Shown here one piece after another: positions 29,975 through 54,314 of a stretch of DNA of 64,000 bases. The notes beneath the pieces were generated by a model. It saw only the letters and a program-made list of their open reading frames with translations. It searched no databases and was not told the DNA's origin. The DNA comes from Microcaldota archaeon (GTDB lineage Archaea > Micrarchaeota > Micrarchaeia > Anstonellales > Bilamarchaeaceae): positions 62,001 through 126,000 of the forward strand of contig JACRGD010000010.1 of the NCBI GenBank assembly GCA_016212525.1, read 5' to 3'. Numbering within the stretch: the stretch's first letter is position 1; each line of letters starts with the position of its first letter. Position numbers and translations under genes: made by a program.

Positions 29975-30100
29975 TGCTCCGCCTGGGATTTGAACCCAGG
30001 TCGTTGGAGATCTTTAAACATTTCAGAAAGTTCTTGATGAGACTTTTTCCAAAAAGTTTCTGAAAGTCCAATATCCTTGACCGGTCTAGACGAGCGGAGC
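29975..30100 (-). tRNA. tRNA-Glu (UUC) with one intron
   Basis: The acceptor stem is GCTCCGC/GCGGAGC with discriminator A, the T-arm CTGGG-TTCAAAT-CCCAG, and the anticodon stem TTGGA/TCCAA with loop CTTTCA|C, giving anticodon TTC. A 51-nt intron (30010-30060) splits the loop at the canonical 37/38 position, with CTTT of the exon able to pair AAAG of the intron. Mature length is 75 nt without CCA. The intron begins with an AAACTTTTT-GG-AAAAAGT hairpin shared with introns of tRNA-Gly and tRNA-Pro. It lies 8 nt beyond the tmk stop. Confidence 0.95.
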
Positions 30101-37472: not shown

Positions 37473-37535
37473 CAATAATAGTTTCTTCAAAAGGATTTAA
37501 ATTTTAATGTCGATTAATCTGATAATGAATCAAAT

Positions 37536-37742
37536 GCGGCTGTAGTCTAGTGATCTTTTTGACTGATGTTATTCTTATGACAAAAAACTCAACCAAAAAA
37601 TCATAAGGTCAAAATAAGTCAAATTGGTCGGATTACGGTAGGATTCCAGCTTCCCAAACTTTTTGGAAAAAAGTTTGATCAAAAAACTTTCTCTAAAAAA
37701 TAGAAAAAGCTGGTGGCCCGGGTTCGAATCCCGGCAGCCGCA
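37536..37742 (+). tRNA. tRNA-Gly (CCC) with two introns, one in the D-loop
   Basis: The acceptor is GCGGCTG/CAGCCGC with A73, and the T-arm CCGGG-TTCGAAT-CCCGG. The anticodon stem CCAGC/GCTGG has loop TTCCCA|A, anticodon CCC. One intron of 51 nt (37657-37707) is at 37/38 and opens with an AACTTTTTGGAAAAAAGTTT hairpin. The other, about 85 nt (37553-37637, ends ambiguous by 1-2 nt), splits the D-loop between TCTAGTG and GTAGGAT. It folds by TTTTGAC/GTCAAAA and CTTATGA/TCATAAG. Removing both gives a standard 71-nt tRNA-Gly. Confidence 0.93.
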
Positions 37743-40729: not shown

Positions 40730-40863
40730 GCCGACGTCGCATAACCCGGTAGTGCGCATGACTGGAAGAAGTTTTTTAGAAAAAACTTCACTAAAAAACA
40801 AAAAAGCTAAAATCCAGCGATCATGTCCCTTTGGGATTCCAAGTTCAAATCTTGGCGTCGGCG
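40730..40863 (+). tRNA. tRNA-Ser (GGA) with one intron
   Basis: The acceptor is GCCGACG/CGTCGGC with discriminator G, typical of Ser. A long variable arm (TCCC-TTT-GGGA) and T-arm CCAAG-TTCAAAT-CTTGG are present. The anticodon stem CATGA/TCATG has loop CTGGAA|A, anticodon GGA. The 52-nt intron (40768-40819) is at 37/38; CTGG of the loop pairs with CCAG near its 3' end, giving a bulge-helix-bulge. Its GAAGTTTTTT/AAAAAACTTC hairpin resembles the other introns here in layout. T-rich sequence follows. Confidence 0.95.
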
Positions 40864-41072
40864 ATTTTCATTTTTCTTTATCCAGATCTTCATCTTTTTC
40901 CTGCATTCGATAAATCTTCGCTCGGCTGAGAATTCCATGCCACAATAGACATAATCCATCATAACACATAATTCACTCAACTTGGAGTTTTAGATCTGGG
41001 AAAATGAGGCAATGCTAAATGAAAAGAACATAAGAACACTGGTTTTTATAGCTAATGAGCAAAATAGTTTCG

Positions 41073-53218: not shown

Positions 53219-53304
53219 TTATTTTGCAGGTTTTAAATAATCAAATAATCGATTACACAGTTCTTTCCCTTTTTAAATCCTACGTTATAAGTTTTGATAG
53301 TTAA

Positions 53305-53500
53305 GGGGCCGTGAGGTAACCTGGTATCCTGCAAGCTTGGGGTCGACGAGCGAACTTTAGATCGCGAAGTTGCCTGGATGCTTGTTATCTGAGTAAACTT
53401 TTGGGAAAAGTTTAATCAAAAAATTTCCAAATGGTTTCAGAAGTTCAACTTCTTAGCAACAAAAACCTGCGGCTAAGGGGAATTTATCTCAGCGGCCCCA
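53305..53500 (+). tRNA. tRNA-Pro (GGG) with three introns
   Basis: The acceptor is GGGGCCG/CGGCCCC with A73. The anticodon stem CAAGC/GCTTG has loop TTGGGG|T (GGG), and the T-stem is CTGAG/CTCAG. Three segments interrupt it. A 36-nt intron (53343-53378) lies at 37/38; a 50-nt one (53394-53443) after T-stem base 53; a 37-nt one (53449-53485) lies inside the T-loop. The last two leave a 5-nt exon TTCAA, which with AT rebuilds the usual TTCAAAT loop. The spliced product is a normal 73-nt tRNA-Pro. The 50-nt intron is related to introns in tRNA-Glu and tRNA-Gly. S2 follows 94 nt downstream. Confidence 0.9.
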
Positions 53501-53594
53501 TTTCTAGATACGGCCTGAACGAAGTGAAGGGCGTATCTAAGATAACGCCTGAGCAAAGCGAAGGAGTTATTCAATGCAGGAAAAAGGTGAAACT

Positions 53595-54314
53595 ATGGAT
53601 GAAGAAAAAATTGAAAAGAAAGAAGACAAAAGTGGATTCCCAGTAAAACAGGACGTTTTCCTTGAAGCTGGAGTCCACATTGGAACCAAGATAAGAACCA
53701 ATGATATGAAGGAGTTTATCTTCAAAAGAAGAGATGACGGACTCTATATCCTGGACTTAAGAAAAACAGTCGATAGATTAATGGCTGCAACAAAACTTCT
53801 CTCTAAATACAAACCAGAAGAAGTAATGATTGTCGCATCTAGAGTATATTCTGGAAATCCTGCTGCAAAGTTTGCTCAGTTAACAGGCGTAAATATAATA
53901 AAGGGAAGATTTGTACCTGGAACCATGACTAACATGACATACAAAGGATTCACAGAACCAAGAATCATTTTTGTATGTGATCCAAAAGGTGAACGAGAAG
54001 CAATAGCAGAAAGTGCCAGAAACGGAGTTCCAGTAATCGCTCTTTGTGATACAGATAACGAAACTAAATTTATAGACGTAGTTATCCCGATCAACAACAA
54101 AGGTAAGAGATCACTAGCACTCATATTCTATGTAATGGCCAGAGAAATGCTTATGGCGCAAGGAAAAATCAGCTCATATGAAGAATTCACTTATGACATT
54201 GGTTACTTTGAACAAAGCCTCATAGAAGTACCAAAACAGGAAGCAAAGATGCAAGAACCAGAAGCAGCACCAGTAACTCCCGCAACAGAGGCAAAAGAAG
54301 TGCCAAAGCAATAG
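53595..54314 (+). CDS. rps2: ribosomal protein S2 (uS2)
   Basis: 239 residues from ATG 53595 (AGGTGA 5 nt upstream); ATG 53574 with GGAG is an equally plausible longer start. Core motifs are LEAGVHIGTKIRTNDMKEFI, GLYILDLRKTVDRL, IIKGRFVPGTMTNMTYKGFT and a VIALCDTDNET segment. The tail is Glu/Pro/Ala-rich, longer than usual. It may share a transcript with tRNA-Pro. Confidence 0.95.
   Translation: MDEEKIEKKEDKSGFPVKQDVFLEAGVHIGTKIRTNDMKEFIFKRRDDGLYILDLRKTVDRLMAATKLLSKYKPEEVMIVASRVYSGNPAAKFAQLTGVNIIKGRFVPGTMTNMTYKGFTEPRIIFVCDPKGEREAIAESARNGVPVIALCDTDNETKFIDVVIPINNKGKRSLALIFYVMAREMLMAQGKISSYEEFTYDIGYFEQSLIEVPKQEAKMQEPEAAPVTPATEAKEVPKQ

Follow-up and report, generated by a model that had tools for sequence, protein, structure and literature searches.

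The locus at positions 53305-53500 of the window (the whole 64,000-nt stretch of DNA that was analysed) shows how small an exon a stably inherited tRNA gene can have. Read unspliced, it comprises an acceptor strand, a D-arm, an anticodon arm, a 5' T-stem strand, 94 nt, a 3' T-stem strand and the second acceptor strand. A preliminary description had proposed a tRNA-Pro(GGG) gene with three introns, a 5-nt T-loop exon and a 73-nt product; the recomputed coordinates agree with this, and the TTCAAAT loop is, as it had also pointed out, common to tRNA-Glu (minus strand, ~29983-30098) and tRNA-Ser (~40735-40866) of the window. The four exons lie in cis and in order inside 196 nt, so that the gene is neither split nor permuted, and the spliced product, GGGGCCGTGAGGTAACCTGGTATCCTGCAAGCTTGGGGTGCTTGTTATCTGAGTTCAAATCTCAGCGGCCCCA, is exactly 73 nt long. 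The features of the locus are the following.

53270-53278, plus strand: TATA-like box TTTTTAAAT, predicted from the sequence, ~30 nt 5' of the tRNA
53305-53342, plus strand: exon 1, with the 5' acceptor strand GGGGCCG, D-arm, 5' anticodon stem, anticodon GGG and G37; joined directly to exon 2 in relatives without intron 1
53343-53378, plus strand: intron 1, 36 nt, position 37/38; contains hairpin GCGAACTTTAGATCGCGAAG, a motif dispersed in the same genome
53379-53393, plus strand: exon 2, with position 38, 3' anticodon stem, variable loop and 5' T-stem CTGAG
53394-53443, plus strand: intron 2, 50 nt, position 53/54; assigned to a dispersed tRNA intron family
53444-53448, plus strand: exon 3, the micro-exon TTCAA, positions 54-58; part of an uncut TTCAAAT in uninterrupted orthologues and kept in 19 genes
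53449-53485, plus strand: intron 3, 37 nt, position 58/59; 9-bp covarying stem, 53449-53457 with 53472-53480
53458-53471, plus strand: conserved apical loop of intron 3, 14 nt, consensus WACAAANACCTGCG
53486-53500, plus strand: exon 4, with positions 59-60, 3' T-stem CTCAG, 3' acceptor strand CGGCCCC and A73
53574-54314, plus strand: ribosomal protein uS2 gene, the conserved downstream neighbour of the tRNA; start perhaps at ATG 53595

The counterpart of the TATA-like box in relatives, TATATAAAA/GTATAAAAA, lies at a similar position. Two tandem palindromic hairpins occupy window positions 53508-53575, between the tRNA and uS2 genes. Dispersed GCGAnCTTTAGnTCGCGAAG hairpins were found elsewhere in the genome (G000 C3:65568-65633, C3:93277 and C5:176791), and the same motif lies inside intron 1 and the tRNA-Pro(CGG) intron; the intron 1 hairpin motif has seven matches genome-wide.

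Detection and splice motifs

The 73-nt spliced form is called as tRNA-Pro(ggg) by ARAGORN, and this call appears as soon as introns 2 and 3 are removed. The same program called no tRNA from the native window, nor from the unspliced gene or any tested form retaining intron 2 or 3; Rfam reported no tRNA at this gene in the native window, and an Rfam search of the L078 region gave no relevant match. Genes of this kind escape ARAGORN and the Rfam tRNA model, and Micrarchaeota tRNA sets compiled with such tools may be undercounted. A tRNA-Gly(CCC)-like gene interrupted by introns in the D-loop and at 37/38 (window ~37510-37742, plus strand) is likewise not called by ARAGORN or, at the gathering cut-off, by Rfam.

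Of shuffled versions of the 94 nt that separate the T-stem strands, 9.8% permitted some reconstruction of TTCAAAT with up to two introns, so that the micro-exon by itself is weak evidence, and 0.025% additionally offered full 4-bp bulge-helix-bulge (BHB) helices at both introns, as in the real sequence. The BHBs were parsed with the cut placed after the second of three bulge nucleotides, in agreement with the solved ARMAN-2 enzyme-RNA complex (PMC12397907), and the following elements were obtained for introns 2 and 3.

53388-53391, plus strand: intron 2 BHB, exon strand TCTG of the central helix, followed by bulge AG|T (53392-53394); covaries with the intron strand
53438-53441, plus strand: intron 2 BHB, intron strand CAGA of the central helix, followed by bulge AG|T (53442-53444)
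53443-53446, plus strand: intron 3 BHB, strand GTTC of the central helix, overlapping the 3' bulge of the intron 2 BHB at 53443-53444 and followed by bulge AA|C
53480-53483, plus strand: intron 3 BHB, strand GAAT of the central helix, followed by bulge TT|A (53484-53486)

All four central pairs form at introns 2 and 3, and intron 1 has a relaxed motif with three of four pairs as parsed by hand. The exon and intron strands of the intron 2 helix occur in the versions TCTG/CAGA, TTCG/CGAA, TCCG/CGGA, CCCG/CGGG and TCCC/GGGA. Among the 24 genes with a 53/54 intron, 94 of 96 cells are paired, a count matched by none of 20,000 shuffles (mean 81, maximum 90), and the 11 unique helix combinations have 42 of 44 cells paired, which was reached in one of 20,000 shuffles; these compensatory counts are drawn from related, non-independent genomes and the shuffle leaves kinship in. 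The intron 2 BHB covaries across the exon-intron border through compensatory changes.

Orthologues and origin of the introns

A tRNA-Pro(GGG) gene lies 5' of the uS2 gene in most Micrarchaeota loci compared, and this fixed address makes orthologues identifiable. In L096 and L103 the gene is uninterrupted and identical to the predicted spliced product at 71 of 73 positions. The 53/54 intron occurs alone in L085 and L082, the T-loop intron alone in L102, L099, L106 and L062, and both T-arm introns in 19 genes, where the exon left between them is TTCAA (TTCAAA in L128). Junctions were assigned by hand in L086, L089, L117, L121 and L132 and by an automatic junction finder in the others. On the uS2 tree both T-arm introns are present in 15 of 15 tips of the target clade (support 92/86), and the state with both introns takes four changes across the tree. 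L110 and L118, placed elsewhere in the tree, and L128 are separate occurrences of this state outside the target clade, in at least two other lineages as read from the tree; L084, the second junction of which is unsure, may be a further one. Intron 1 was not found in other genomes of the target clade. The exons are intact in all 15 target-clade tips, as recovered with T-stem and acceptor patterns, a search favouring conserved members, and mean identity within the clade is 66% for intron 3 and just 39% for intron 2. An assembly error as the source of the structure was ruled out, the same structure being present in independent genomes. By this comparison the three-intron structure is real and inherited, and the tRNA-Pro(GGG) gene with its micro-exon is confirmed at the sequence level more strongly than had been proposed, the comparative evidence being decisive and more so than the gene's own letters. 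Relatives that have no, one or both T-arm introns make the gain, loss and movement of archaeal tRNA introns traceable at one locus. In L129, the tRNA-Pro(GGG) gene has an unusually short intron of 12 nt at 59/60.

The two T-arm introns appear to differ in origin. A family with the consensus CAAACTTTTTAGGAAAAAGTTTGATCAAAAAC..., to which intron 2 belongs, occurs in the same genome in genes such as those of tRNA-Asn, Val, Thr and Asp, at position 37/38. The sequence model of this family gave 14-22 matches in the genome, varying with cut-off and filters and including some introns that served to build the model and so match by construction, and several matches in most genomes of the genus. Judged by these matches, intron 2 is one of the dispersed copies of a tRNA intron family, and intron 3, to go by its distribution, is a separate intron that has been kept vertically. 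Intron 3 is 36-38 nt long across the clade, its 9-bp stem has two-sided changes in eight of nine pairs, and its 14-nt loop WACAAANACCTGCG is nearly invariant and in the genomes of the genus occurs essentially only at this locus. The last observation led to the rejection of the loop as a dispersed intron motif; as a 16S rRNA antisense it was rejected likewise, the sole exact opposite-strand match in the window being the locus itself. The fixed-length hairpin, covarying stem and conserved loop could tentatively be taken as a selected RNA element carried by intron 3, possibly a stand-in T-loop for precursor folding or processing, or else a stable circular intron RNA, although we consider such an element rather doubtful.

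A second micro-exon gene was found in the same genome. This tRNA-Ile(UAU)-like gene (G000:C8 ~583289-583495, minus strand; L207, L186) has three introns and a 6-nt TTCAAA T-loop exon, the introns lying at 37/38, at 53/54 (of the same family as intron 2 of tRNA-Pro(GGG)) and at 59/60, with a weaker motif for the T-loop intron (three of four pairs by hand). Its relatives include genes without T-arm introns (L216, L221), with the 53/54 intron only (L210), with the T-loop intron only (L204, L215, L217, L218) and with both (L203, L206, L212, L213, L214). In L204, L215, L217 and L218, introns of the intron 2 family lie at 58/59 or 59/60 and not at 53/54, suggesting that the family has moved or slid within the T-loop of orthologous tRNA-Ile(UAU)-like genes.

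Order of removal and alternative readings

The 3' bulge of the intron 2 BHB includes the last nucleotide of intron 2 (53443) and T53444 (T54), and with these same two nucleotides the helix of the intron 3 BHB begins. Since the two BHBs share 53443-53444, they cannot coexist in one molecule and the introns must leave in turn; a requirement for sequential removal is thus well supported by the anatomy of the gene. The locus is a natural example of adjacent introns whose splice motifs have nucleotides in common, which makes ordered rounds of cutting and ligation necessary. Some archaeal introns are so close that one must go before the next motif forms (tRNAscan-SE 2.0; PMC8450103).

It is likelier that intron 2 leaves before intron 3. 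This order is favoured because the intron 2 BHB needs just its own intron and the 5' T-stem strand, because the T-stem, which is the outer helix for intron 3, is split until intron 2 has gone, and because in L089, L110 and L118 the intron 3 helix is completed only after removal of intron 2 (from three to four of four pairs). For the majority of genes, pairing in the intron 3 helix is as good with intron 2 as without it. The intron 2 helix is present in RNAfold predictions for most precursors, with a value of 0.94 in the window gene, where the intron 3 helix is weak (0.16, and 0.20 once intron 2 is removed); these models do not show the proposed order. That the junctions are right and the order is reversed, with intron 3 first, or random is the less probable reading, and one to be taken seriously: since some genes have only the 53/54 intron and others only the T-loop intron, neither BHB depends on the presence of the other intron to work; the intron 3 helix of many genes has an A-U pair before and a G-U pair after intron 2 removal; and in L073 and L076 the intron 3 helix is predicted to form in place of the intron 2 helix. 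The split T-stem and the three genes that complete the intron 3 helix only without intron 2 argue against it and for removal of intron 2 first.

In the preliminary description, AGAAG, the last bases of intron 2, was proposed to pair with CTTCT, the first bases of intron 3, so that the two introns may be removed in sequence. Sequential removal stands, on the grounds of overlapping BHBs; the pairing device is very unlikely, being perfect in the window gene and L091 (two of 19 genes) but reduced to 0-4 of five pairs in the other 17, and CTTCT is instead half of the stem that covaries in intron 3. A kissing interaction between the hairpin loop of intron 2 and the loop of intron 3 was considered by eye and dropped: L072 and L074 have no match, and L085, which lacks intron 3, still has the intron 2 loop. 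If the selected element in intron 3 is real, together with the overlapping BHBs it would make T-loop assembly an ordered and checked step of maturation.

Slightly less probable again is a pseudogene in which insertions destroyed the T-arm and another tRNA-Pro(GGG) is in use, a case that the preliminary description had named as one that would overturn its reading. The failure of standard tools to call the unspliced gene would fit it, but no second GGG gene was found in the ~90% complete assembly, where UGG and CGG isoacceptors are separate genes; CCC and CCT codons are common in the open reading frames of the window (86 and 163 of 494 Pro codons); and neither decayed exons nor a functional copy elsewhere were found, the exons being intact throughout the target clade, against a mean identity of 39% for intron 2. 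The 3' part of tRNA-Pro(UGG) is duplicated downstream of its gene (TGTCTGTGTTCAAATCACAGTCCCCCCAATC; L170 / G000:C5 ~48.1-48.3 kb). Least probable of all is one long T-arm intron, with TTCAA present by chance and an odd T-loop or junctions elsewhere, for TTCAA is indeed not rare in shuffled introns, but the joint BHB helices are, excision of everything from intron 2 to intron 3 as a single intron gives no tRNA call in ARAGORN, and relatives with exactly one T-arm intron fix both junctions.

Proposed maturation and comparison with known systems

The same genome contains a 404-codon reading frame that matches the Micrarchaeum (ARMAN-2) splicing endonuclease over its full length (4fz2/9w2k; 450 bits, E 7e-134). 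The specificity-loop residues Y160/K161 and the catalytic residues Y236/H251/K282 are conserved, as are R275, K228, S252 and W384, and, judged against the three-unit chain of ~390 aa with ASL Tyr-Lys and Y/H/K triad that marks the type, this full-length alignment identifies it as an epsilon2-type enzyme, a type that cuts relaxed motifs (PMC6379350). An RtcB ligase is encoded as well (E 2e-167), so that both an endonuclease and a ligase are present. A second, short splicing-endonuclease-like protein of ~165 aa (G000:C3:137688-137936) has the M. jannaschii enzyme as its best match. In the proposed pathway, the tRNA-Pro(GGG) transcript would mature through three cut-and-ligate rounds, the epsilon2-type endonuclease cutting BHB or relaxed BHB motifs and RtcB joining the ends; intron 2 would be removed first, forming the T-stem, and intron 3 would then leave, the T-loop being built from the 5-nt exon. 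We conclude with high confidence that this is a functional, single-copy Micrarchaeota tRNA-Pro(GGG) gene, for which three rounds of endonuclease/RtcB splicing, their order and the use of RtcB are what we infer from sequence.

With respect to enzymes, the closest known system is that of ARMAN-2, of whose epsilon2 endonuclease the present enzyme is a full-length homologue with the same ARMAN-specific loop and catalytic residues; it differs in that the present genome also encodes the second, shorter endonuclease-like protein. In the Thermoproteales, dispersed similar tRNA introns are known (intron transposition, cited in PMC4033280), and similar introns likewise occur in many different tRNA genes of one genome, whereas the intron 2 family is a separate, apparently Micrarchaeota-specific one found at 37/38, 53/54, 58/59 and 59/60. 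Outside the archaea, Cyanidioschyzon merolae tRNA-Ile(UAU) has D-, anticodon- and T-arm (53/54) introns with BHB motifs (PMC9602550); it resembles the present gene in having three introns, including one at 53/54, but is that of a eukaryote and has a single T-arm intron, hence no micro-exon.

Archaeal tRNA genes carrying as many as three BHB introns, at canonical sites and elsewhere, are documented (PMC8450103, PMC4390854, PMC4033280, PMC11291895). The preliminary description had referred to the multi-intron tRNAs of some Thermoproteota, a frame that does not fit the host of the gene, a Micrarchaeota archaeon. No earlier report of an exon this small was found in the literature compared, outside which lie Sugahara 2007-2009 and Fujishima 2011. 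The multi-intron tRNAs of Thermoproteales (for example Pyrobaculum), ARMAN-1/2 and the Asgard Atabeyarchaeia likewise have up to three BHB introns, some so closely spaced that one has to be removed for the next BHB to form. The present gene differs from these in that a 5-nt exon supplies the greater part of the T-loop, that two of its BHBs have nucleotides in common, and that the same arrangement is retained within one clade and appears again in other clades. Multi-intron archaeal tRNAs being already known, the present gene is, as its sequence and those of its relatives indicate, an extreme, conserved and functional-looking variant of them.
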